In this document: piece after piece, positions 14,457 through 60,991 of the stretch
Layout: every line of letters starts with the position of its first letter
Position numbering within the stretch: the first letter of the stretch is position 1
Source of the DNA: Anaerobacillus isosaccharinicus
GTDB lineage: Bacteria; Bacillota; Bacilli; Bacillales; Anaerobacillaceae
Assembly (NCBI RefSeq): GCF_001866075.3
Contig: NZ_CP063356.1
Coordinates: 3,028,164-3,092,163, forward strand
Direction of reading: 5' to 3'
Length of the DNA stretch: 64,000 bases
The notes under the pieces: model-generated
Database searches by the model: none
Told to the model about the DNA's origin: nothing
The model's input: the letters and a program-made list of their open reading frames with translations, nothing else
Translations under genes and position numbers: made by a program

Positions 14457-15734
14457 ATGAATTTTAAACAAAACGAAAAAATAAATCAAGTCACTGAAAA
14501 GACACTCGTTGTTGGAATGGACATTGCGAAACGAACTCATTTCGCTTGTTTTACCGATGATCGTGGACGCGTGCTCCAAAAATCATTTCCTGTTTCTCAA
14601 TCACATGATGGCTTTGAACAATTTTATCAGAAAATTTTAGCGGCACTAAGAGAACATGATAAATCGGAAGTCATCGTCGGTATTGAGCCTACAGGGCATT
14701 ATTGGCTTAATCTAGCCTACTTTCTAGAGGATCTTGGTATTTCTCTTGTCATGACCAATCCGATGCATGTGAAACGATCAAAAGAGTTGGATGACAACCT
14801 TCCAACAAAGCATGATCGTAAAGATGCGTTAGTGATTGCCCGCTTGGTCAAAGATGGCCGTTTCAGCTACCCAAGAATATTAAAAGATATGGAAGCTGAG
14901 CTTCGTGCAGGTTCGACTTTTAGAAGTAAATTGACAGAGGAGTTGGGTGCTGTCAAAAATATGATGATTCGCTGGTTAGATCGTTATTTTCCTGAGTTTA
15001 CACAAGTGTTTCCCTCGTTTGGGAAAATGGCGTTAGCAGTACTGGAATGTACACCATTTCCAAGTGATCTTCATGAGAGACAACTTGAAGAGGTAATGAC
15101 TCTTTATCGAGAGGTTGATGGGATAAAATCTCCTCAGAAACCGAAAGCTATGCGCCTAATTGAAGTCGCTGCAAATTCAATTGGAATAACTGAAGGACGT
15201 CAGATGGCCCGTTATGAAATCACCACACTCGTTCAACGTTATCACCAATTAGAAAAAAAAATCGATGACATCACACAACAATTAGTAGAACTCGTACAAA
15301 CTTCTGTAGAATACGAATCGCTCAAGACGGTTCCGGGTCTTGGAGACTCGACAATCGTTGACCTTCTAGCTGAAATCGGTAGCTTTTCACACTATGAAGA
15401 TCCACGCCAACTTATCAAACTAGCGGGACTTACATTACGTGAAAATTCATCGGGGCAGCACAAAGGCCAAAAACGTATTTCTAAACGAGGAAGAAGGAAG
15501 TTACGAGCACTCCTATTTCGTGTCATGATGCCGATGCTCCGTCACAATGAAGCATTTCGTAAACTACATGAATATTACACGAATCGCTCGATCAATCCGT
15601 TACGTAAGAAGCAGTCAATTGTGGTCCTTTGCGGAAAACTACTAAAAGTTTTACATGGAATTAGTACAAAGCACAAAGCATTCGATGCACAGCGAATGAT
15701 GAGGGATATCCCTAGTCTCGTAGAGGCTGTATAA
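14457..15734 (+). CDS. IS110-family transposase (DEDD, Transposase_20)
   Basis: The 425-residue protein has an N-terminal DEDD RuvC-like domain: VVGMDIAKRTHFA holds the first Asp, VGIEPTGHYW the Glu, and KHDRKDALVIARL the later acidic pair. A central coiled region follows. The C-terminal Transposase_20 domain shows TVPGLGDSTIVDLLAEIGSF, LIKLAGLTLRENSSG and KRISKRGRRKLRALLFR, including the serine thought to be catalytic in IS110 recombinases. Enzymes of this family cut and join DNA guided by a bridge RNA from the element's own non-coding end. The frame is intact, so the copy may be active. ATG at 14457 follows AAGGAGGACTCC. Confidence 0.95.
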   Translation: MNFKQNEKINQVTEKTLVVGMDIAKRTHFACFTDDRGRVLQKSFPVSQSHDGFEQFYQKILAALREHDKSEVIVGIEPTGHYWLNLAYFLEDLGISLVMTNPMHVKRSKELDDNLPTKHDRKDALVIARLVKDGRFSYPRILKDMEAELRAGSTFRSKLTEELGAVKNMMIRWLDRYFPEFTQVFPSFGKMALAVLECTPFPSDLHERQLEEVMTLYREVDGIKSPQKPKAMRLIEVAANSIGITEGRQMARYEITTLVQRYHQLEKKIDDITQQLVELVQTSVEYESLKTVPGLGDSTIVDLLAEIGSFSHYEDPRQLIKLAGLTLRENSSGQHKGQKRISKRGRRKLRALLFRVMMPMLRHNEAFRKLHEYYTNRSINPLRKKQSIVVLCGKLLKVLHGISTKHKAFDAQRMMRDIPSLVEAV

Positions 15735-35124: not shown

Positions 35125-35167
35125 TGTGATTTATCTCACTGTCGCAACCGTCTAACTACCTTATGAT
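35125..35167 (+). promoter_or_regulatory. Fnr-type promoter of the radical SAM gene
   Basis: TGTGA-N6-TCACT at 35125-35140 (one mismatch) is followed by TATGAT at 35162-35167, the exact -10 spacing for a site at -41.5. Confidence 0.7.
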
Positions 35168-35209: not shown

Positions 35210-36304
35210 ATGGATTTATCTTTCTTATCAATGAAACCAAAAAATTATGATGAAAATCCGTTCATCGTTATTTGGGAAGTAACTAGAGCATGTGCTTTAA
35301 AATGTTTACACTGTAGAGCAGAAGCACAATATCAAGCGGATCCAAGACAGCTTTCTTTTGAGGAAGGTAAAAAATTAATAGATGAAATTGCAACGATGGA
35401 TAACCCCTTATTTGTTTTTACTGGTGGCGACCCACTTATGAGACCAGATCTTTATGAATTGGCAAAATACGCAATTGAAGAAAAGAAGTTGCCAGTATCT
35501 ATGACACCGAGCGCTACGCCAAAAGTAACGAAAAAGGCGATTGATCAAGCAAAAGAAGTTGGACTCTCTAGATGGGCGTTTAGTTTAGATGGCTCAACAG
35601 CTGAAATTCATGACCACTTTCGAGGTACAAAAGGTTCGTATGATTTAACAATGAAAGGTATTGATTACCTACAAGAACTTAACATTCCAATTCAAATTAA
35701 CACAACAGTTTCTAGATATAACTTAGACGATCTACCTTTAATGGCTGAAAAAGTAAAAGAAATGGGTGCAGTGCTGTGGAGTTTATTTTTCCTAATCCCA
35801 ACGGGTAGAGGGATGGAAAAAGATATGATTACTGCTGATGAGCATGAAGAAGTCATGAAGTGGTTATTTACTATCCAACAAGAAATGCCATATGGCGTCA
35901 AAGCAACCGAGGCTCCTCACTATCGCCGTGTTGCCTTGCAAGAAAAGAAACGAATGAAGCTGGGTGAAAAACAAGGGAACAAACGGCTAGATACGCTCGG
36001 ACGAGCACCAAAAGGTGTTAATGATGGTGATGGGTTTATCTTTATTAGTCATATTGGTGATGTGTATCCTAGTGGTTTCTTACCAGTAAAGTGCGGTAAC
36101 GTAAGAGAAACTCCACTTCCGGAAATATACCGTCAAAGTCCTATTCTTAGAGAACTAAGAGATAAGTCATTAATTAAAGGTAAATGTGGTGCTTGTGAAT
36201 ACAAAGAAATTTGTGGTGGATCACGTGCAAGAGCATATGCAGTAACAGGAGATTATCTAGAGAGTGACCCATATTGTGCTTATGTTCCAAAAGCTTTTCA
36301 ATAA
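35210..36304 (+). CDS. Radical SAM/SPASM enzyme, TIGR04053 (BA_1875)-like
   Basis: The 364-residue protein has the radical SAM cluster motif CALKCLHC (CxxxCxxC) at about residues 24-31, with GGDPLMRPD as the SAM-binding glycine motif. A C-terminal SPASM-type site for extra clusters contains CGACEYKEICGG and a later DPYC. It is related to the NirJ/AhbD heme-modifying and peptide-modifying enzymes, and best fits the TIGR04053 family of Bacillus. Its substrate is unknown; no small precursor peptide is obvious beside it. Fnr control and position next to the reductase operon suggest a role in anaerobic cofactor or protein maturation. ATG 35210 follows ACGGAGGAATAACT. Confidence 0.75.
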   Translation: MDLSFLSMKPKNYDENPFIVIWEVTRACALKCLHCRAEAQYQADPRQLSFEEGKKLIDEIATMDNPLFVFTGGDPLMRPDLYELAKYAIEEKKLPVSMTPSATPKVTKKAIDQAKEVGLSRWAFSLDGSTAEIHDHFRGTKGSYDLTMKGIDYLQELNIPIQINTTVSRYNLDDLPLMAEKVKEMGAVLWSLFFLIPTGRGMEKDMITADEHEEVMKWLFTIQQEMPYGVKATEAPHYRRVALQEKKRMKLGEKQGNKRLDTLGRAPKGVNDGDGFIFISHIGDVYPSGFLPVKCGNVRETPLPEIYRQSPILRELRDKSLIKGKCGACEYKEICGGSRARAYAVTGDYLESDPYCAYVPKAFQ

Positions 36305-36528: not shown

Positions 36529-36594
36529 TGTGAGAAAATGCACAGGACCAGTGTGATTATTTATACAGTTGCGGGGTGTCGACTCTTCTACAAT
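36529..36594 (+). promoter_or_regulatory. Tandem Fnr-like boxes and promoter of the nitrate reductase operon
   Basis: TGTGA-N6-GCACA at 36529-36544 (one mismatch) and TGTGA-N6-ATACA at 36552-36567 (two mismatches) lie 23 bases apart. TACAAT at 36589-36594 has exactly the -41.5 spacing to the second box. The remaining 380-base gap (36305-36683) otherwise shows only a T-rich sequence and an ~80-base leader. Confidence 0.6.
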
Positions 36595-36683: not shown

Positions 36684-37889
36684 ATGAACAACCTTGAAAG
36701 AAATTATTCTACAGCCAACAATGAAAGTGCCAATCCAAAATTAAACTTGAAAAGTCTTGAGAGATCGTTTTATTCAAAAACTAGTATGTATTCATTTTTT
36801 GTAGTCTCCTTCTTATTTCTGACAATGTGGATAGGAACAGGACAATTTGTGAAAATTGACTTAATGCTCGCAGGATATATGGTTGCATCATTTATTTTTG
36901 CCATTGGCATAACAGTTAGGATGGCAGCATGGTTAATTCGACCAGCTACCAATCAAATGATCAAACGTAGTATTCAAAATATGCTAAGTACAAAACGTAC
37001 GAAGCGGAATGTAATGTCAATTGTCAAAACCATTGTTGATAATATTATTCTTCAAAAATTTATCTTTAAACGAGGGCTATACAGGGGGATCCAGCATTGG
37101 TTGATCGCTTGGGGCTGTATCGGTTCATTTGCGATTACATTCGGACTAACATTTGGTTGGATGCACTTTAGATTAATCGATGCGACAACTTATCAAATGA
37201 TGGTGTTTAATATCCCGACGATTACGATGCAAGCTAACGGATTATTTGCAGAAATGATTTATAACGGATTAAATATTACTGCGTTAATGGTTTTAGTTGG
37301 GGTCATTATGGCTCTTGTAAGAAGAATTCATAACCATGATCTGAAGGTAACTGAGCGAGCAGAGTTTGATTTATTACCTCTTTATATACTATTAGCGGTA
37401 ACGGTGACTGGATTATTATTAACGGTTTCATACAAGTTTTTAGGTGGTCTAATTCACCCTCAACTAGCACTAATTCATCAAATAACAGTTGTTCTATTCT
37501 TAATTTACTTCCCATTCGGTAAGCTGTTCCATTTACCAATTCGTCCTTTGGCTACAGCAGTCCCTATGAACTACCAGGAGGAAATTATGGTTGATACTAG
37601 ATCATGTAAAAAATGTGGCACGAAATATAGTAGTGACGATCAAATTGCTGATGTAAAGTCAATCTTACACTCACAACAATTCGATTTAAAATTAGAAGAT
37701 GGCTCATATTTGGCCGATTATTGCCCAAATTGTCGTAGAAGAATTCGAGTAATGACTCAATTAAACTTAGGCTCCGTAAAAGGTAATCCATATGGACCTG
37801 TTCAAACGAACAATGGAATTCATGTTCCTGGTTTCGGTAGAAAAAGATCAGATGAGTTTTATAACCAGTCTGCAGAGGAGGAAAAATAA
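36684..37889 (+). CDS. Cytochrome b-like membrane subunit with C-terminal CxxC...CxxC domain
   Basis: The 401-residue protein has about six membrane helices (near 35-57, 60-84, 136-162, 195-213, 230-253, 260-283). In-membrane or edge histidines at 138, 161, 258, 265 and 283 could ligate b-type hemes, as in NarI/HdrE/DsrM-type quinol oxidising subunits. After residue 300 there is a soluble tail with Cys pairs 308/311 and 347/350 that resembles a zinc ribbon or rubredoxin-like site. It likely anchors the reductase and takes electrons from menaquinol. It is the first gene of the operon, and its stop overlaps the start of the catalytic gene by one base. Heme binding is inferred. Confidence 0.65.
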   Translation: MNNLERNYSTANNESANPKLNLKSLERSFYSKTSMYSFFVVSFLFLTMWIGTGQFVKIDLMLAGYMVASFIFAIGITVRMAAWLIRPATNQMIKRSIQNMLSTKRTKRNVMSIVKTIVDNIILQKFIFKRGLYRGIQHWLIAWGCIGSFAITFGLTFGWMHFRLIDATTYQMMVFNIPTITMQANGLFAEMIYNGLNITALMVLVGVIMALVRRIHNHDLKVTERAEFDLLPLYILLAVTVTGLLLTVSYKFLGGLIHPQLALIHQITVVLFLIYFPFGKLFHLPIRPLATAVPMNYQEEIMVDTRSCKKCGTKYSSDDQIADVKSILHSQQFDLKLEDGSYLADYCPNCRRRIRVMTQLNLGSVKGNPYGPVQTNNGIHVPGFGRKRSDEFYNQSAEEEK

Positions 37890-40012
37890 TGACTCAATTT
37901 TTAGCTAAAGAAGGCGTGAAAAATCTCCACCGTGAAGGTGAAAAGTTAATTACAACCCATTGCTGTTATTGCGGGATGCAGTGTGGAATGCATATAAGAT
38001 TAAATGAAAAAACAGGTAAGGTTGTTGGGGTAGAACCTCGTTACGATTGGCCGGTAACACTTGGTAAAATGTGCCCAAAAGGTGTTACAGCTTATCAAAC
38101 TGTTGATCATGATGAAAGAATTACTACACCTTTAATTAAGAAAAATGGTCAGTTCGTTAGAGCAACATGGGATGAAGCATTAGATTTAATTGAGAAGAAC
38201 TTTAAAGATCTTCAAAGTAAACACGGGAAAGATGCACTATCTGTTTATGGTGGCGTATCTATGACAAATGAAAAGTGTTACCTAGTAGGAAAGTATGCTC
38301 GTGTCGGATTAGGAACACGTTTTGTTGACTATAACGGTCGTTTTTGTATGAGTTCTGCAGCTGGTGGTTTTATGAAGACGCTTGGAACCGACCGTGGCTC
38401 AACATTCCCTTGGACTGAGTTAGAGCATACAGATTGCTTCTTTATCTCAGGATGGAATGCAGCAGAATGTCACCCTACTTCAATTCAGTGGTTATGGAAA
38501 GCGAGAGATAAAGGCGCAAAAATGATTGTAGCAGATCCTCGTGAAACTCAAATTGCTCGTCTTGCTGATGTTCACTTAGATTTAAAATCTGGAACAGACT
38601 CAGCACTAGCAAACGGAATGCTCCACATTATCGTTCGTGATGGTTATGTTGACGAAGCTTATGTTAATGAACGTTGTAACAATTATGAAGAAATGAAAGA
38701 AAAAGTGAAACTATTCACTCCAGAATATACATCTGAAATTACAGGGGTATCGGTAGAAAAAATCGAGAAGGCTGCAAGGATTTACGGTAAGTCACCTCGT
38801 TCAGTAGTAATGTTTTGTCGTGGTATTGAGCAACAAACAAAGGGTGTAGACAATGTTTGTATCTACACTTCAATGGCGTTACTAAGAGGTCAAATTGGAA
38901 AGTTTGCTTCTGGTGTAGCGACAGTAACAGGTCAAGGAAACGGTCAAGGTGGACGTGAGCACGGTCAAAAAGCAGACGCGCTTCCTGGCTACAGAAAAAT
39001 TGCTGATCCTGAGCATGTTAAATATATTGCAGGTGTTTGGGGCATTCAACCTGAAGAAATGCCAAAAGCAGGGGTTTCTGCTTATGAGATGTTTGATGAA
39101 ATTCAAAAAGGAAACATTCGTGCAATGCACGTGATGTGTAGTAACCCGGCAGTATCAGCACCTAATACTGAATACGTTTGGGATAGCTTTAGAAAATTAG
39201 ACTTCTTAGTTGTAAGTGATTTCTTCTTATCAGAAACGGCTGAGTTTGCGGATGTTGTTCTTCCTGCGACAACGTGGGCAGAAGACGAAGGAACTACAAC
39301 AAACCTTGAAGGTCGTGTAATTCGTATTCGTAAAGTAAAAGATCCAGTTGGAGAGTCTAAAACTGACTGGCAAATTATGCAGGCAATTGCAGAACGTATG
39401 GACAAAGGTAAATACTTCCCTTATGAAAACGTTCCGCAAATTTATGAAGAATTTCGCTTAGCAACAAAAGGTGGAAAAGCAGATTATTACGGAATTACGT
39501 ATGATCGTATCGATAAAGAAGATGGTGTCTTCTGGCCTTGTCCTTCTGAAGATCACCCTGGAACACCGACTATGTTCAAAGAAAAATTTGATACTCCAAA
39601 CGGAAAAGCTAATTTAGCAGTTGTTGATTGGCAAGAACCAAATGAAATTCCGACAGCTAAGTTCCCACACACGTTAACAACTGGCCGTGTCGTATTCCAT
39701 TACCTTTCAGGTACACAAACGAGAAGAGTAAAATTCTTGATGGAACAATGTCCACTACCATATGCAGAAATGCATCCAGAACTTGCTAGTCAATATAACT
39801 TAGCAAATGGAGATAAAGTAAAATTATCAACACCGCGTTCAACAATGGTGGTCGATGTCCGCTTAACAAAGGCAATCAGAAATGATCATGTATTCGTACC
39901 TTACCACTGGGGTAAAGAGCTATCCATTAATCAGTTAACAAATCCAGCTCTTGATCCTACTTCAAGAATGCCAGAATTTAAAGTTTGTGCCGTTAAAATA
40001 GAGAAAGCGTAA
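37889..40012 (+). CDS. Molybdopterin oxidoreductase, assimilatory (NasA/NarB)-type nitrate reductase catalytic subunit
   Basis: The 707-residue protein belongs to the DMSO-reductase family. The N-terminal [4Fe-4S] site is C25-x2-C28-x3-C32-x29-C62. The likely molybdenum ligand is Cys153 in NGRFCMSSAAGG, the pattern of Nas/Nap nitrate reductases rather than the Asp of NarG. The C-terminal dinucleotide-binding domain follows (LTTGRVVFHYLSGTQTRR). No Tat signal is present, so it is cytoplasmic. Two NarK-type transporters and Fnr nearby support nitrate as substrate, and the membrane and Rieske partners suggest a respiratory role. Other oxyanions cannot be excluded. Confidence 0.85.
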   Translation: MTQFLAKEGVKNLHREGEKLITTHCCYCGMQCGMHIRLNEKTGKVVGVEPRYDWPVTLGKMCPKGVTAYQTVDHDERITTPLIKKNGQFVRATWDEALDLIEKNFKDLQSKHGKDALSVYGGVSMTNEKCYLVGKYARVGLGTRFVDYNGRFCMSSAAGGFMKTLGTDRGSTFPWTELEHTDCFFISGWNAAECHPTSIQWLWKARDKGAKMIVADPRETQIARLADVHLDLKSGTDSALANGMLHIIVRDGYVDEAYVNERCNNYEEMKEKVKLFTPEYTSEITGVSVEKIEKAARIYGKSPRSVVMFCRGIEQQTKGVDNVCIYTSMALLRGQIGKFASGVATVTGQGNGQGGREHGQKADALPGYRKIADPEHVKYIAGVWGIQPEEMPKAGVSAYEMFDEIQKGNIRAMHVMCSNPAVSAPNTEYVWDSFRKLDFLVVSDFFLSETAEFADVVLPATTWAEDEGTTTNLEGRVIRIRKVKDPVGESKTDWQIMQAIAERMDKGKYFPYENVPQIYEEFRLATKGGKADYYGITYDRIDKEDGVFWPCPSEDHPGTPTMFKEKFDTPNGKANLAVVDWQEPNEIPTAKFPHTLTTGRVVFHYLSGTQTRRVKFLMEQCPLPYAEMHPELASQYNLANGDKVKLSTPRSTMVVDVRLTKAIRNDHVFVPYHWGKELSINQLTNPALDPTSRMPEFKVCAVKIEKA

Positions 40013-40034
40013 AACGATAGGAGGAGAAACGACC

Positions 40035-40577
40035 ATGAATAAAATTATGTATCTTGAATTCGAACGTTGTATCGGTTGTAGATCTTGTCAAGCCGCTTGT
40101 CGTGAGTGTGGTGGACATGATGCAAAAGAACGAAATTATGTTGAATACGTCGATTTTATGGAAAGCCGTCAAACATTTCCAATGCTTTGTATGCAATGTA
40201 AGGATCCTGCCTGTGCTCGTGTATGTCCGGCAAATGCAATTCAAATAACAGAAGAAGGTGTAGTACTTTCTGCAATGGAAGAAAAATGTATTGGCTGTAG
40301 AAATTGTACTTTTGGATGTCCATTTGGTATTCCAAAGTTCGATTTTGAAGAGAATAAGATGTACAAGTGTGATATGTGCTATGACAGAACACAACATGGC
40401 ATTTCCCCAATGTGTGCGTCTGTTTGTCCAAGTGATGCAATTCGTTTTATTGACTTTGATGAAATGCAAGCGTTACGCAGACGTAGAACACAAATGAATT
40501 TAATCGAAGGTAAAAAGCCAACAGAACAAGATAAATGGCAATATGTACCTGAGTTTTTCGGAGTATACAGTGATTAA
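40035..40577 (+). CDS. Four-cluster ferredoxin subunit (DmsB/NrfC-like)
   Basis: The 180-residue protein carries sixteen cluster cysteines in four groups: 12/15/18/22, 52/55/60/64, 85/88/91/95 and 112/115/127/131. These should hold four [4Fe-4S] clusters, as in the electron-transfer subunits of DMSO-reductase-family enzymes. It would wire the catalytic subunit to the membrane or to the Rieske protein. No export signal is present. ATG 40035 follows AGGAGGAGAAACGACC, 23 bases after the catalytic gene. Confidence 0.93.
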   Translation: MNKIMYLEFERCIGCRSCQAACRECGGHDAKERNYVEYVDFMESRQTFPMLCMQCKDPACARVCPANAIQITEEGVVLSAMEEKCIGCRNCTFGCPFGIPKFDFEENKMYKCDMCYDRTQHGISPMCASVCPSDAIRFIDFDEMQALRRRRTQMNLIEGKKPTEQDKWQYVPEFFGVYSD

Positions 40578-40582
40578 TAAAT

Positions 40583-40630
40583 GAGGAAAGCCCTTCCTCA
40601 CTTAAAGCGAGGGTAACACCTCGCTTTAAG
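40583..40630 (+). promoter_or_regulatory. Two tandem hairpins inside the reductase operon
   Basis: GAGGAA/TTCCTC (40583-40588 with 40594-40599) is followed at once by a perfect 12-bp stem, CTTAAAGCGAGG/CCTCGCTTTAAG (40601-40612 with 40619-40630). Neither has a T-run, so they more likely control RNA processing or the ratio of ferredoxin to Rieske protein than termination. Confidence 0.65.
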
Positions 40631-40658
40631 TTACAAATTTATGAACGGAGGGTAAATC

Positions 40659-41192
40659 ATGACAGATAAAAAGAAATTAGGCCGTAACCAAAAAGATACA
40701 GAAGATGACATGATTAATTTAGTTGATAATTTAAATCGTGAAGATGATTTGAAATATAATCGTCGTGCATTTCTAAAAACAGCTGTAGGGACATCGGTTG
40801 CTCTTAGTGTTGCAACAATCCCTTTTACAGTAAGAGCTATGTTAGGAATTGCCGAGGAAGACCATGAAAGGGTTGAAATTGCTAAACTAGCAGATCTTCC
40901 AGAAGGTGAATCGGTTACGTTTTATTATCCTACTGAAAAAGATCCTGCACTATTGATTCATACTGTAAATGGTGATTTAAAAGCCTACAATAGTGCTTGT
41001 ACACACCTTATGTGTCCGGTTTTTTATGAAAAAACACAAGACGTACTTTTATGTCCTTGTCACGCAGGATATTTTGACGTGAATAATGGGCAACCTAAAG
41101 CTGGCCCGCCTCAACGAGAACTTCCTTTAATTGAGATTGAAGTAGACAATGGTATTGTTTATGCGGTTGGGAGGCAGTATCGTCATGGGTAA
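40659..41192 (+). CDS. Tat-exported Rieske [2Fe-2S] protein
   Basis: The 177-residue product has a twin-arginine signal (NRRAFLKTAVGTSVALSVA, about residues 35-53) serving as a membrane anchor. The Rieske cluster motifs are C114-T-H116 and C132-P-C-H135, with Cys119 and Cys134 placed for the usual disulfide. It should sit on the outer face and accept electrons from quinol or the cytochrome b. A Rieske subunit is unexpected beside a Nas-type reductase and suggests a bc-like electron path. ATG 40659 follows GGAGGGTAAATC. Confidence 0.92.
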   Translation: MTDKKKLGRNQKDTEDDMINLVDNLNREDDLKYNRRAFLKTAVGTSVALSVATIPFTVRAMLGIAEEDHERVEIAKLADLPEGESVTFYYPTEKDPALLIHTVNGDLKAYNSACTHLMCPVFYEKTQDVLLCPCHAGYFDVNNGQPKAGPPQRELPLIEIEVDNGIVYAVGRQYRHG

Positions 41193-41379
41193 AAAAACAT
41201 GTTGGTCAATTATAATCTGCACCATCATTGTAAACGTTGTAATGCTTCAATGGACTGTTGAAGCTCATTACGGTAGAGAGTATGGGAGTATTCTGCTTTT
41301 TAGTGGGATAAGTATCGTTTCTGCATTTATTGCTTTATTAACATATTTACAATGGCGAAAAATCGAATACAAAAAGTAA
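41185..41379 (+). CDS. Small two-helix membrane protein of the reductase operon
   Basis: The 64-residue protein begins MGKKTCWSIIICTII, has two hydrophobic helices separated by EAHYGREYGS, and ends in a basic tail (WRKIEYKK). It starts inside the last codons of the Rieske gene (8-base overlap) with GGGAGG ten bases upstream, so it is almost certainly translated with it. It could be a membrane subunit stabilising the Rieske protein or cytochrome b; the single histidine leaves heme binding doubtful. No family recognised. Confidence 0.6.
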   Translation: MGKKTCWSIIICTIIVNVVMLQWTVEAHYGREYGSILLFSGISIVSAFIALLTYLQWRKIEYKK

Positions 41380-41505: not shown

Positions 41506-41549
41506 AGTGAGATTTTTCACATCACAATGATAGTCCCATCAACTATCAT
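41506..41549 (+). promoter_or_regulatory. Fnr-type promoter of the first narK gene
   Basis: AGTGA-N6-TCACA at 41506-41521 (one mismatch) and TATCAT at 41544-41549 lie within one base of the -41.5 spacing. A short ATGATAG/CTATCAT stem surrounds the -10, and a second candidate, TATAAT, lies at 41571-41576. Confidence 0.55.
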
Positions 41550-41612: not shown

Positions 41613-42908
41613 ATGGCAAGGATTACTAGATGGGAGCCTGAAAATGAACAGTTTTGGGAAGCAGAAGGGAAAAAACATGCAAACCGAAATTTATGGATCT
41701 CAATTCCTGCTTTATTATTAGCATTTGCCGTTTGGCAAATTTGGTCAGTAACAGCTGCAAGCTTAAACGACATTGGTTTTAATTTTACAAAATCAGAATT
41801 ATTTACTCTAGCGGCGCTTCCAGGTCTTACTGGAGCGACATTTCGAATTTTCTACACATTTGTCGTTCCGATTTTCGGTGGACGTAATTGGACGATCATA
41901 AGTACCGCATCGTTACTAATTCCATCCATAGGAATTGGTCTAGCAGTTCAAAACCCTGAAACATCATTTATGACTATGGCTATTTTAGCAGCACTTTGTG
42001 GTCTTGGAGGAGGAAATTTTGCTTCTTCAATGGCAAATATTAGTTTCTTCTATCCTAAGAAAGCAAAAGGAACTGCCCTTGGCTTAAATGCTGGAATCGG
42101 AAACTTAGGGGTTAGCACAGTTCAATTCGTAGCTCCTTTAGTTGTAACAATGGGTATTTTCGGAGCTGTAGCTGGTAATCCTCAAATTTTAGCAGATGGC
42201 ACGCAAGTTTGGGTTCAAAATGCAGCTTTCGTTTGGGTCATTCCAATTATTTTAACAGTGATTGCAGCAATTTTCGGAATGGATAATTTACCAGGAACAA
42301 AGGCATCTATTAAAGAGCAGGCAGTTATTTTTAAAAACAAACATACATGGATTATGACATTCCTTTACGTTATGTGTTTTGGTTCATTTATTGGTTATTC
42401 AGCAGCATTTCCACTATTAATTAGAACAGAATTTCCAGAAGTGAATGCACTGCAGTTTGCGTTCCTTGGTCCACTTGTCGGTGCTCTTATTCGTCCAGTT
42501 GGGGGTTGGGTATCAGATAAGGTTGGAGGAGCGATTGTAACATTTATTGATATTATTGTGATGATATTCGCCACATTAGGTGTTATTTATTTCTATAATC
42601 AAGGGAACTTTACAGGGTTCTTAATCATGTTCCTAGTTCTTTTTGTTACAACAGGTATTGCTAACGGTTCTACATTCAGAATGATTCCTTACATTTTCTC
42701 AAACCAAAAAGAAGCTGCAGCTGTTTTAGGATGGACGTCAGCAATTGGAGCGTATGGTGCTTTCTTAATTCCAAAAATCTTTGGTTGGTCAATTGACACA
42801 ACAGGTTTGGCAAATACGGCACTTTATATCTTTATCGCTTATTATGTTTTAAGTTTAGTCATCACTTGGTACTACTATTCAAGGAAAGATGCAGAAGTAA
42901 AGTGCTAA
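41613..42908 (+). CDS. narK: NarK-type nitrate/nitrite MFS transporter
   Basis: The 431-residue protein has twelve predicted membrane helices and the nitrate-porter pattern. FTLAALPGLTGATFRIFYTFVVPIFGGRN carries the conserved arginine, and two glycine-rich nitrate signatures follow (AALCGLGGGNFASSMANISFF; later GIANGSTFRMIPYIF). It should import nitrate, or exchange it for nitrite, for the cytoplasmic reductase encoded upstream. ATG 41613 follows AGGAGGAATTACT. It has its own Fnr-like promoter, so it can be expressed apart from the reductase operon. Confidence 0.92.
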   Translation: MARITRWEPENEQFWEAEGKKHANRNLWISIPALLLAFAVWQIWSVTAASLNDIGFNFTKSELFTLAALPGLTGATFRIFYTFVVPIFGGRNWTIISTASLLIPSIGIGLAVQNPETSFMTMAILAALCGLGGGNFASSMANISFFYPKKAKGTALGLNAGIGNLGVSTVQFVAPLVVTMGIFGAVAGNPQILADGTQVWVQNAAFVWVIPIILTVIAAIFGMDNLPGTKASIKEQAVIFKNKHTWIMTFLYVMCFGSFIGYSAAFPLLIRTEFPEVNALQFAFLGPLVGALIRPVGGWVSDKVGGAIVTFIDIIVMIFATLGVIYFYNQGNFTGFLIMFLVLFVTTGIANGSTFRMIPYIFSNQKEAAAVLGWTSAIGAYGAFLIPKIFGWSIDTTGLANTALYIFIAYYVLSLVITWYYYSRKDAEVKC

Positions 42909-43025: not shown

Positions 43026-43071
43026 CTTTATACATATACATAGTTAATCCTTTTGATGGGGGATATAGTTG

Positions 43072-44574
43072 ATGTCTAGTAAAGAATTGTTTCATTTTAA
43101 AAACCCACGTATGAAAGTGTTACATTTAACATGGATTGCATTTTTTGTCTCATTTTTTGCTTGGTTCAATATGGCACCGCTTGCAGGAACAATGATTGAA
43201 TCTGTAGGTTGGCTAACAAAAGACCACATGGCCGCATTAGCAATTATCAACGTTGCATTGACAATTCCAGCTCGTATTGTAATTGGAATGTTACTCGATC
43301 AATATGGCCCTAGAAGAGTTTTTTCGATATTACTTGTTGTGATGGCAATCCCCACATTTTTCTTTGCATTTGGCACAACTTGGATGCAATTATTTATTTC
43401 CCGCTTATTAATTAGTTCAATTGGTGCCAGTTTTGTAGTTGGGATCCGAATGGTTTCTGAGTGGTTTCCTCCAAAAAGTGTTGGCTTTGCTGAAGGGTTT
43501 TATGCTGGCTGGGGTAACTTTGGTTCTGCAGCTGCCGCAATCGTTCTTCCTTGGGTTGCAATTACAATGTTTGGCGGTGACGAAGGTTGGCGCTATGCGA
43601 TTGCGTTTAGTGGCGTTGCCTGCTTTATATACGGAATTATTTATTGGTTCGTTGTGAGTGATACACCTGAAGGAAAAGTGTATCAAAAACCAAGAAAAAC
43701 AGCGGCAATGGAAGTCAGTTCCTATCGTGATATGATCCTATTAATTTTGTGGACAGTTCCTTTAGTTGGTGCATTAGGATTATTGTCGTGGCGTTTAAAA
43801 AACTTACAGTTCATTTCAGAACAAGCATTATCCATTATTTATGTTATTTTATTTTTGGTCTTAGCTTTTCAAATCTTTCAAATTTTACGAGTGAATTTAC
43901 CGATCCTAAGAGAAGGTGTCCCTGAGGATGATAAGTATAAATTTAAAAATGTAGCCGCTTTAAATACGACGTATTTTGCAAACTTTGGGGCAGAACTAGC
44001 GATTGTTTCAATGCTACCACTATTCTTTTTAACTACATTTGGCCTAACAGCAACAGCAGCTGGTTTAATCGCCTCATCATTTGCATTCGTTAATTTGTTT
44101 GCAAGACCTTTTGGTGGTTGGCTATCTGATCGAATGACAAGCCGAAAAACAGTAATGCTGCTATATATGTTTGGAATAAGCTTGGGCCTTGTTGCAATGG
44201 GGATGATTAACTCAGAGTGGCCGTTACTACTAGCAGTTATGGTTACGGTATTAACGTCAATGTTCATTCAAGGTGCAGAAGGTGCAACATTTGCTGTAAT
44301 TCCACTTATTAAGAAGCGAATAACTGGTCAAATCTCTGGGATGGCTGGAGCTTATGGGAATGTTGGCGCAGTTGTCTACTTAACCTTGTTTACGTTAGTA
44401 ACACCACAAACGTTCTTCTTTATTTTAGCAGGTGGGGCATTTCTAAGTTTTATATTCTGTTTACTATTTTTAGACGAACCAAAAGGCTCACATAGTGAGG
44501 AATATCAGCTTTCTAGCGTTGACTTAGCCCAACAGGAAGAACAAATGATAGAAAAGCGAGTAAAAGGTGCTTAA
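43072..44574 (+). CDS. narK: NarK-type nitrate/nitrite MFS transporter, second copy
   Basis: The ~500-residue protein is a second nitrate/nitrite porter with the N-terminal FFVSFFAWFNMAPLAG helix, ARIVIGMLLDQYGPRR loop and GWGNFGSAAAA/GGWLSDRM motifs. It has a longer loop between helices 6 and 7 than the first copy (about residues 205-300, with two extra hydrophobic stretches) and a charged tail. Paired unlike NarK proteins often separate nitrate/proton import from nitrate/nitrite exchange. I choose ATG 43072 over TTG 43069 on spacing to TGGGGGAT. The next gene is fnr, as in the B. subtilis narK-fnr arrangement. Confidence 0.88.
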   Translation: MSSKELFHFKNPRMKVLHLTWIAFFVSFFAWFNMAPLAGTMIESVGWLTKDHMAALAIINVALTIPARIVIGMLLDQYGPRRVFSILLVVMAIPTFFFAFGTTWMQLFISRLLISSIGASFVVGIRMVSEWFPPKSVGFAEGFYAGWGNFGSAAAAIVLPWVAITMFGGDEGWRYAIAFSGVACFIYGIIYWFVVSDTPEGKVYQKPRKTAAMEVSSYRDMILLILWTVPLVGALGLLSWRLKNLQFISEQALSIIYVILFLVLAFQIFQILRVNLPILREGVPEDDKYKFKNVAALNTTYFANFGAELAIVSMLPLFFLTTFGLTATAAGLIASSFAFVNLFARPFGGWLSDRMTSRKTVMLLYMFGISLGLVAMGMINSEWPLLLAVMVTVLTSMFIQGAEGATFAVIPLIKKRITGQISGMAGAYGNVGAVVYLTLFTLVTPQTFFFILAGGAFLSFIFCLLFLDEPKGSHSEEYQLSSVDLAQQEEQMIEKRVKGA

Positions 44575-44789: not shown

Positions 44790-45500
44790 ATGGAAAAGAA
44801 AGAGCTGGAAATGAAGCGTTTCTTTAATGAATTATCAAAAGAAAACCAAGACTTGTTACTATCAATCGGCTTGGAAATAACGGCAAAGAGTGGAACGTTT
44901 TTATTTTATGAGGGAGACTTTCCTGAAAACGTTTATTTAATTCGTGAAGGAAAGGTTCGCTTAAGTAAAATGACTGCTGATGGAAAAGAGTTCAGTGTTC
45001 ATTTAAAGCAAAAAGATGAACTTGTAGGTGAGGTTGGTTTGTTTAACGACATGTCTATTAGTGTTACTGCTGAAGTAATTGACGACGCTATTTTAGTCAA
45101 GTTTGAAAGACCAGCTCTTGAAGCAATCTTTAGAGAGAATGGTGAGATTGCAGTTGCCTTTATGAAATGGTTTGCTAGACATACACAGTCGACCCAAGCG
45201 AAGTTCCGCGATTTAATTCTTTGTGGGAAAACTGGTGCTTTTTATTCAACATTAATTCGTTTTAGTAATTCTTACGGAGTAAAGTCAGATAACGGAATTC
45301 TAATAAACGTACAATTAACAAATCAGGATATTGCCAACTATATTGGCACAACAAGAGAAAGTATTAATCGCATGCTTAATGATTTGAAAAAAGATAAAAT
45401 TATTACTATGGACAAAGGTTTTATTACAATTAAGGATATTGAATTCTTAAAAGACTATTTACATTGTGGCGACTGCCCAGTAGAGATCTGTACGATATAA
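44790..45500 (+). CDS. fnr: Fnr-type oxygen-responsive regulator with [4Fe-4S] cysteine motif
   Basis: The 236-residue protein has a cyclic-nucleotide-like sensor domain (GTFLFYEGDFPENVYLIREGKVRLS), a dimerisation helix, a Crp-type helix-turn-helix (TNQDIANYIGTTRESINRMLNDLKKD) and a C-terminal C226-x2-C229-x4-C234 motif. B. subtilis Fnr binds its [4Fe-4S] cluster through C-terminal cysteines of this spacing plus an aspartate; FRDLILCG here offers the matching Asp. It should bind TGTGA-N6-TCACA sites under anoxia, of which many lie in this window. ATG 44790 follows AAAAGAGG. Confidence 0.92.
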   Translation: MEKKELEMKRFFNELSKENQDLLLSIGLEITAKSGTFLFYEGDFPENVYLIREGKVRLSKMTADGKEFSVHLKQKDELVGEVGLFNDMSISVTAEVIDDAILVKFERPALEAIFRENGEIAVAFMKWFARHTQSTQAKFRDLILCGKTGAFYSTLIRFSNSYGVKSDNGILINVQLTNQDIANYIGTTRESINRMLNDLKKDKIITMDKGFITIKDIEFLKDYLHCGDCPVEICTI

Positions 45501-45581: not shown

Positions 45582-46130
45582 TTAAAACTCCCCTGTTGGA
45601 ACGATCTTTAAGTTAGTCCCTGAAAGAACTTTTTCACCTGTTTTCGTAACAAGTGTACATTGAATAATACGAAAGTCTTCTTTCACTGTCTCGTCTTTAA
45701 TAACATCAATTAAGATCCCTTCACCAATCACTTGGTTGTTACTAATAACAAGTACCTTTTGCCCTTCCATCGATACATGCTTTGCTCCCTCTAAAAATAC
45801 CATCCACTTACTCCAACTATTAAAGATATACGCTTCTTTCCCATCCGCCAAATACCCCATTAAAGCTAAATGATCATCAACAGAAGCTTCAATTTGATCT
45901 GCGAGCGCTTTTATGACTTTATGAAGGGATTTATATTGTTCAAAAGATAACTCCTTGGAGAAAGTTAAAATAAGCCTTTTACTTGAAGCATCATGAATTA
46001 TTTTAGCAGTATAATCTAATTCATTTAGAATGTAAGTGTTATTTTCGTATTTAAAATGTAAATTCCGTAATGTTTCAAAAATTGGTTGTTCGCCTTCATA
46101 GTTGAATGTTACTTGTAACAAACGTATCAA
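45582..46130 (-). CDS. Hypothetical 182-residue protein
   Basis: I do not recognise a family. The product is soluble, with beta-rich ends (IRLLQVTFNYEGEQPIFETL; a final strand-rich region with VLVISNNQVIGEGILIDVI) and a helical centre (SFEQYKSLHKVIKALADQIEA). No metal motif, signal or membrane segment is visible. It sits convergently with fnr and divergently from the YwiC-like gene, inside the anaerobic block, so a related role is possible but unsupported. ATG 46130 has no strong ribosome site (AGGGGTTGATACGTTTG lies a little upstream). Confidence 0.6.
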   Translation of the reverse strand: MIRLLQVTFNYEGEQPIFETLRNLHFKYENNTYILNELDYTAKIIHDASSKRLILTFSKELSFEQYKSLHKVIKALADQIEASVDDHLALMGYLADGKEAYIFNSWSKWMVFLEGAKHVSMEGQKVLVISNNQVIGEGILIDVIKDETVKEDFRIIQCTLVTKTGEKVLSGTNLKIVPTGEF

Positions 46131-60283: not shown

Positions 60284-60991
60284 TTATATTGTGCAAATTT
60301 CAACTGGGCATTTCCCACAGCGTAAATGATTTTTCAAATAATCGATGTTTTTTATTAAGATGTTACCATTTAAAAAAGCAATGATTTTATCCTTTTTTAA
60401 ATCTTGAAGCATTCTATTTGTTGTTTCTCGTGACGTTCCGATGTAATTAGCAATATCTTGATTTGTTAGTTTAACAGTTAATAAAATATCGTTATGGTAG
60501 TTTACTCCGTAAGAATTACTAAATCGTATCAGGATCGAATAAAGCGCTCCCACTTTTCCGTAAAGGAGTAGATCTGAAAACTTTGCTTGTGTTGATTGTG
60601 TATTACGGGCAAAAAGCTTTATAAATGATACTGCAATTTCCCCATTTTGCAGAAATAATGCTTCTAAGTGATCCCGATTAAATTTGATTAGTTTTGAATC
60701 TTCAATAACTTCTGCCGTCATACTGACTGACATATCGTTAAACAAACTAAATTCACCTACAATTTCATGTTCCTGCTTAAGGTGAAGAAAAAACCTCTTA
60801 TGATCTATCGTCATTTTACTTAAACGTACTTTTCCGGATTTGATTAAGTAAATGCTTTTTGCTTCATCCCCTTCGTAAAATAAAGTTGTTCCTTCTCTAA
60901 CGAAAGTTTCTACACCATTCTGCAACAAAATATCTTGGTTTTCCTTTGATAGTTGTTTAAAAAAAGGTGTAATTTCAACTGTTTTAGTCAC
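60284..60991 (-). CDS. Second Fnr-type regulator with [4Fe-4S] cysteine motif
   Basis: The 235-residue protein is a close paralogue of the Fnr at 44790: the same sensor layout (TLFYEGDEAKSIYLIKSGKVRLS), helix-turn-helix (TNQDIANYIGTSRETTNRML) and a C-terminal C225-x2-C228-x4-C233 motif ending CPVEICTI as in Fnr. FSDLLLYG carries the candidate aspartate ligand. The recognition helix differs slightly (RETTNR against RESINR), so target preference may differ. It is a lone minus-strand gene with no nitrate genes beside it. ATG 60991 follows a GGGGTGACGGGGG region. Confidence 0.88.
   Translation of the reverse strand: MTKTVEITPFFKQLSKENQDILLQNGVETFVREGTTLFYEGDEAKSIYLIKSGKVRLSKMTIDHKRFFLHLKQEHEIVGEFSLFNDMSVSMTAEVIEDSKLIKFNRDHLEALFLQNGEIAVSFIKLFARNTQSTQAKFSDLLLYGKVGALYSILIRFSNSYGVNYHNDILLTVKLTNQDIANYIGTSRETTNRMLQDLKKDKIIAFLNGNILIKNIDYLKNHLRCGKCPVEICTI

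Follow-up and report, generated by a model that had tools for sequence, protein, structure and literature searches.

A conserved gene module in Anaerobacillus isosaccharinicus and its relatives: a putative menaquinol:nitrate oxidoreductase with a Nas-type catalytic subunit

Why would a molybdoenzyme of the assimilatory nitrate reductase lineage be encoded together with a membrane cytochrome b and an exported Rieske protein? This question is raised by five closely packed genes at 36684-41379 on the + strand of a 64,000-nucleotide stretch of Anaerobacillus isosaccharinicus DNA, which corresponds to positions 3028164-3092163 of the single-contig genome of 5.23 Mb (NZ_CP063356.1) and is referred to below as the window; positions count from its first letter unless stated otherwise. 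Our analysis suggests that the probable product of these genes is a membrane-bound menaquinol:nitrate oxidoreductase induced under anaerobic conditions, in which Nar-like wiring would serve a Nas-type catalytic subunit.

The first gene (36684..37889) encodes a NarI/EtfD-like cytochrome b subunit of 401 amino acids (aa) with six long hydrophobic helices in its structural model and a C-terminal CxxC...CxxC domain. It overlaps by 1 bp with the gene for the molybdenum (Mo)-bisMGD catalytic subunit of the NasC lineage (37889..40012, 707 aa), in which the Cys ligand is followed by Met and a Tat signal is absent. The next gene (40035..40577) encodes a DmsB-like iron-sulfur (FeS) protein of 180 aa with the Cys pattern for four [4Fe-4S] clusters and without a signal. 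It is followed by the gene for a 177-aa Rieske [2Fe-2S] protein (40659..41192), which carries the Tat motif NRRAFLK, an N-terminal hydrophobic segment and the sequence CTHLMC...CPCH, and by that for a small protein of 64 aa (41185..41379) with two hydrophobic segments and without a Pfam family. The first four products had been named in an earlier interpretation made from the letters alone (the sequence-only reading); this gene set was confirmed, and its end point at 41379 is explained by the end of the 64-aa gene.

The gene order is kept across relatives. All four main genes were found in order at 19 of 19 relative loci; in L046 and L060 the Mo gene is split in two frames. The fragment hits G016 and G052 (E about 6e-4) had been dropped from 21 matches, which left 19. 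A larger set, kept of 264 confirmed stretches, consists of 79 Bacillales loci (type A, 65; type C, 14). Of these, 77 were found to hold the FeS gene and 75 the Rieske gene, with the same order in all 75 loci where both were found; the loci L066, L099 and L118 end at contig ends, and L121 does not. The small-protein gene occurs in 56/65 type A loci and in 0/14 type C loci. When genomes were sampled, the module cytochrome was detected in 88 of the 397 from the order; among 398 from the phylum, 2 had it, both belonging to the same order. Judged from the sequences, the five-gene set is a real, conserved and widespread module common to many Bacillus relatives.

The catalytic subunit has the ligand motif YNGRFCMSSA, lacks an RR motif within the first 40 residues and has no hydrophobic segment, in line with the earlier prediction of a Cys Mo ligand and a missing Tat signal. 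Against the NasC model NF047855 it scored 908.2 bits (paralog, 934.3), under the cut-off of 1100, while 15 canonical NasC proteins reached 1137.7-1337.4 bits. Its scores against the NarG model TIGR01580 (84.4 bits, cut-off 1084.15) and the NapA model (298.2 bits, cut-off 904) were far under and under the respective cut-off. A tree, which the sequence-only reading had proposed as a check, was calculated under a simple model from 25 loci of the 79-locus set, 7 further loci, the window, 15 NasC proteins and 4 outgroup genes. The 33 module Mo subunits formed one clade (99/97) and the canonical NasC proteins an adjacent one (100/100). The root was set on the formate dehydrogenase rows, and the program issued a warning about long branches between NasC and the outgroup, which concerns the root.

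The cytochrome b subunit has no Pfam family, the only NCBIfam match was a weak one to QmoC (36 bits vs a cut-off of 300), and a profile search against the PDB sequences gave 0 hits. A model built from a 74-sequence alignment (68 of the 77 sequences from the 79-locus set, 5 further ones and that of the window) reached a pLDDT of 79.9 and showed six long membrane helices followed by a C-terminal domain; an earlier model had been poorer (pLDDT 69.6). The top Foldseek matches were EtfD (probability 1.00) and NarI (0.99), with non-significant E-values of 0.03 to 0.12 and low TM-scores; the E-values for the earlier model were not significant either. An hhalign comparison with NarI, for which 14 of 15 sequences were used, gave 94.8% and placed H265 and H283 on the last two haem histidines of NarI. 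How H138 lines up with the first haem helix is ambiguous, since the global alignment sets the first NarI histidine on A142. H138, H265 and H283 were invariant in 74/74 sequences, as were the four cysteines in the CxxC pairs of the C-terminal domain; no other His was invariant, and position 148, ten residues after H138, was Ser in 73/74. NarI carries four haem histidines. Since three of these four are kept, the module cytochrome appears to have a complete haem site on the inner side but an incomplete one on the outer side. In the sequence-only reading, electrons were proposed to cross the membrane by a "bc-like" route; because the cytochrome is NarI/EtfD-like by Foldseek and hhalign and lacks a Pfam match, this wording fits the Rieske protein only, and an identity as a bc-family cytochrome b was rejected for want of a family match.

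The FeS protein matches the Pfam family Fer4_11, while its DmsB match falls below the cut-off. The 16-Cys pattern was found at 75/77 loci; the remaining two matches hold only 5 Cys. The Rieske protein matches PF00355 and has a single hydrophobic segment at 47-65, and both ligand pairs and the disulfide cysteines (CxHxxC...CxCH) were present in 75/75 Rieske proteins. RRxF[LIVM] was found by eye in 69/72 clustered Rieske proteins, with the other three lacking it in the stretch examined or as called, and ten type C proteins read RRxFMK. The Rieske protein is therefore predicted to be exported by its NRRAFLK motif and segment 47-65, and the catalytic subunit to stay in the cytoplasm, as the sequence-only reading had it. 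The best PDB matches of the module Rieske protein were those of quinol-cytochrome c reductases. Rieske proteins of bc1 complexes usually hold Ser and Tyr near the cluster. At the corresponding positions the module proteins carry Gly and, in most cases, Phe; a lower potential would be consistent with this.

FNR-type sites have the consensus TGTGA-N6-TCACA. One such box, TGTGAGAAAATGCACA (36529..36544, +), lies 155 nt before the cytochrome b start and another (41506..41521, +) before the transporter gene narK1, each with one mismatch; the window holds 13 boxes with at most one mismatch vs 2.3 expected. In the 400 nt before cytochrome b, a perfect box was found at 61/79 loci (51/65 type A, 10/14 type C) and one with at most one mismatch at 71/79 (60/65 and 11/14). 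The corresponding means in Markov resampling were 0.06 (type A) and 0 (type C) without mismatch and 1.37 and 0.11 with one mismatch. TnrA-type boxes were at chance level (1/79 loci; type A 1, type C 0). The promoter boxes suggest that the module is apparently induced in the absence of oxygen.

Downstream of the module, two NarK-family nitrate/nitrite transporter genes (narK1, 41613..42908, and a second one, 43069..44574; both + and over the TIGR00886 cut-off) precede a Crp/Fnr regulator gene (44790..45500, +), whose product ends in a CxxCxxxxC motif, the site type described for B. subtilis Fnr. According to the available passages of a review, narK and fnr are co-transcribed in B. subtilis and the Fnr cluster sits at the C-terminus (PMC8139620). 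Among the 79 loci, a NarK-like transporter lies near the module in 36 (in 18 at an identity of at least 50%; looser clustering gave 44) and a Crp/Fnr gene in 40, of which 25 encode the C-terminal Cys cluster. A further Crp/Fnr gene with the same ending is found at 60284-60991 (-). The proposal that a membrane- and quinol-linked, respiratory role has been built on a Nas-type subunit is thus supported by the FNR-type boxes, the NarK and Crp/Fnr neighbours and the separate clade.

We infer a complex that would take electrons from menaquinol and deliver them to nitrate. Nitrate would be imported by NarK and reduced to nitrite in the cytoplasm by the Nas-type Mo subunit. The electrons for this step would leave menaquinol via the NarI/EtfD-like cytochrome b, move on to the four-cluster FeS protein and from there reach the [4Fe-4S] cluster of the Mo subunit itself. 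The Rieske protein would be held on the outer face by its N-terminal helix and probably joins quinol oxidation there; a role as outer acceptor would be in keeping with its export and with the lack of the outer histidine. With three of the four NarI histidines retained, it may take the place of the outer haem. If the quinol site lies on the outer face, the enzyme would, by analogy with NarGHI, contribute to the proton-motive force through a redox loop. More tentatively, the module could represent, alongside Nar and Nap, a third class of enzyme for nitrate respiration, of Nas lineage, in which the exported Rieske protein replaces the NarI-type outer haem as first menaquinol acceptor and forms with the single-haem cytochrome a new quinol-oxidising site feeding a cytoplasmic molybdoenzyme; we regard this as possible rather than probable.

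With NarGHI the module shares a cytoplasmic Mo subunit, a four-cluster FeS protein, a b-type membrane subunit whose C-terminal helices resemble those of NarI, and the proximity of NarK and Fnr. NarG uses Asp as Mo ligand. Unlike NarGHI, the module has a NasC-lineage subunit with a Cys ligand, an FeS protein of 180 aa, a longer cytochrome b with one NarI-type histidine fewer, and an additional Rieske and small subunit, and no narJ was seen. In the haloarchaeal Nar operon (narB Rieske, narC cytochrome b, narGH), the genes for a nitrate reductase and its FeS protein are likewise accompanied by those for a Rieske protein and a cytochrome b, and a quinol route via the Rieske protein has been proposed in the part of the work available (PMC2483277); its catalytic subunit, however, is NarG-type and faces outside, whereas that of the module is Nas-type and carries no export signal. 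The best Foldseek match, EtfD of Mycobacterium smegmatis, is described in the accessible text as having one b haem, which lies between menaquinone and FeS clusters on the cytosolic side (PMC13083937). In contrast to the module, EtfD is a single-chain protein that contains CCG domains, and it uses electrons from ETF to reduce menaquinone. Assimilatory NasC resembles the module's catalytic subunit in family, length and Mo motif; the module differs in its separate clade, its score below the cut-off, its membrane partners and its FNR-type promoter. From periplasmic NapA it is set apart by the score below the NapA cut-off and the lack of an RR motif. The cytochrome bc and b6f complexes share with it a Rieske protein with the ligand pairs and disulfide cysteines, but not the bc-family cytochrome b.

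Part of the module was probably noticed in 2012, because the gene order and NasC length reported then fit the type C module. In B. bataviensis, Heylen & Keltjens listed nasC (BABA_16882, 729 aa), a "hybrid iron sulfur protein" (BABA_16877) and a Rieske protein (BABA_16872), and called the set, with "HCP", an alternative assimilatory system; the passages available do not mention a cytochrome b partner (PMC3475470). The relationship was judged by description rather than by sequence. No account of the whole module was found in a search limited to open-licence papers. As far as their available sections go, a 2021 review names Nar and Nap alone for nitrate respiration (PMC8139620) and a 2023 superfamily survey has NasC/NasA working in assimilation only (PMC10100899).

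Following the 2012 suggestion for that apparent relative, the enzyme might be an assimilatory or redox-dissipating nitrate reductase fed from the quinol pool, which the NasC lineage of its catalytic subunit (908 bits against NF047855) would favor. The score under 1100 and the FNR-type rather than TnrA-type boxes make this unlikely, as does the distribution of canonical NasC, of which 15 proteins from 14/61 relatives were over the cut-off (10 of these relatives belong to the 19 module genomes) and whose 1.5-kb flanks lacked the module partner genes at all 15 loci. An identity as ordinary assimilatory NasC was rejected on the separate clade, the score and the boxes. The substrate could also be another oxyanion such as selenate, chlorate or arsenate, with nitrate incidental, since sequence alone does not tie the NasC/NapA family to one substrate and the genus is described, in the text available, as respiring selenate and arsenate (PMC11944866). 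We consider this very unlikely in view of the NarK-like neighbours and a Cys-Met motif as in nitrate reductases; moreover, the genome has its own ArrA-like gene, which encodes an 853-aa Mo protein (L032:4639-7200) with an FeS partner and scored 1109 bits, below the ArrA cut-off of 1600.

The catalytic subunit also exceeds the cut-off of the formate dehydrogenase alpha model TIGR01591 (673.8 vs 666.25 bits), and its best PDB matches are formate dehydrogenases. That the enzyme is a formate dehydrogenase or runs oxidatively is nevertheless extremely improbable, because Met replaces His after the ligand in 48/48 module and NasC sequences examined (window included) and the module clade lies beside NasC with the formate dehydrogenase rows as outgroup. 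All four of these outgroup genes have a TGA stop codon followed by a His codon at the ligand position; the Cys-Met pair, instead of selenocysteine- or Cys-His, was the ground for rejecting a formate dehydrogenase identity. Alternatively, cytochrome b, Mo subunit and FeS protein could constitute the reductase, with the Rieske protein serving as an electron outlet of its own, e.g. one that leads from quinol to a cytochrome of the c type. The predicted export of the Rieske protein but not of the Mo subunit would suit such an arrangement, and the NapB and NrfA-family genes of the genome encode c-type cytochromes that could accept the electrons. The retention of the Rieske gene in order within the operon at 75/79 loci and the lack of a c-type cytochrome among the classified window proteins beside the module argue against it, and we hold the separate outlet to be a somewhat unlikely solution.

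Several observations weigh against the module being an anaerobically induced menaquinol:nitrate oxidoreductase, beyond the TIGR01591 score and the non-significant Foldseek E-values already given. Two nap clusters lie side by side in the genome (L031, genome positions 4822000-4836000), with napG, napD, napB and napA repeated and with napH and another napG; therefore, nitrate respiration here does not need the module. Avoidance of narG, which was found in 72/397 genomes of the order at the threshold used and in 5/50 named module genomes, is weak (4/59 type A genomes vs 68/338 others; p 0.016, relatedness ignored), and the trend is reversed in genomes with non-A modules (11/29 vs 57/309 without a module). 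The window's own promoter has one FNR-type box with a single mismatch and another with two, and a TnrA-like match lies 199 nt before cytochrome b. The upstream regions of canonical nasC that served as controls (FNR-type box 0/15, TnrA-type 1/15) may not be promoters where nasC is not the first gene. A divergent second copy of the module in the same genome (see below) has no FNR-type box within two mismatches. Phenotypes in print are mixed: in the parts of the papers available, A. isosaccharinicus is scored nitrate + and the module carrier A. alkalilacustris nitrate - in the same source (PMC11944866), and the latter is elsewhere called nitrate-reducing (PMC8114274). In favor of the module, Alkalihalobacterium elongatum MEB199, which carries it (L073) and has no narG, the only nitrate reductase gene for which it was checked, is reported to reduce nitrate to nitrite (PMC8543038).

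The sequence-only reading had stated that NarGHJI and NapB are missing. This stands genome-wide for narG, none of which exceeded the cut-off, and locally only for NapB, given the two nap clusters. One NapA was scored (990 vs a cut-off of 904) and one NapB matches the Pfam NapB family; the NapA of L031 begins with a Tat motif and a Cys resembling a lipobox. Neither NapC nor the flavin donor NasB occurs among the classified window neighbours, and no genome-wide search was aimed at either. The genome further holds three NrfA-family (cytochrome c552) genes (genome positions 475535, 1491288 and 1493870) and three Mo-enzyme genes with an in-frame TGA (1837963, 2604704 and 4811687; L034, L033 and L030), which are probably selenocysteine formate dehydrogenases.

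The second module copy (L029:5154-9485, -) comprises four genes and encodes a Mo subunit with 55% and a cytochrome b with 39% identity to those of the window. No NarK lies alongside, and its substrate may differ from that of the window module. The paralogous cytochrome b is the single genome-wide match of the NarI model, barely over the cut-off; no NarI proper was found in the genome.

Should the module indeed serve nitrate respiration, this process is undercounted in soil and soda-lake bacilli by surveys that rely on narG and napA, and annotations as assimilatory NasC or formate dehydrogenase mislead. The module would also provide a test case for the ability of a NarI-type cytochrome to work with a Rieske protein.

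Upstream of the module, a radical SAM/SPASM protein gene (35210..36304, +) exceeds the TIGR04053 cut-off and is preceded by an FNR-type box at 35125; its product resembles the AhbD/NirJ heme-synthesis proteins. Members of TIGR04053 recur beside the module in 22 of the 79 loci, as do an ApbC-type FeS carrier (34), a globin-like (7) and a ScdA-like protein (6); the ApbC and ScdA assignments were checked. Mo-cofactor genes, labelled by eye, also recur, e.g. MoeA-like in 15 and MoaA-like in 10 loci. A family of 181-aa proteins adjoins the module in 37/79 loci, to which the 182-aa protein without a Pfam family encoded at 45582-46130 (-) is related. Finally, two copies of an IS110-like transposase gene (label by eye), at 14457-15734 of the window and at L030:294-1571, look identical over the stretches compared.

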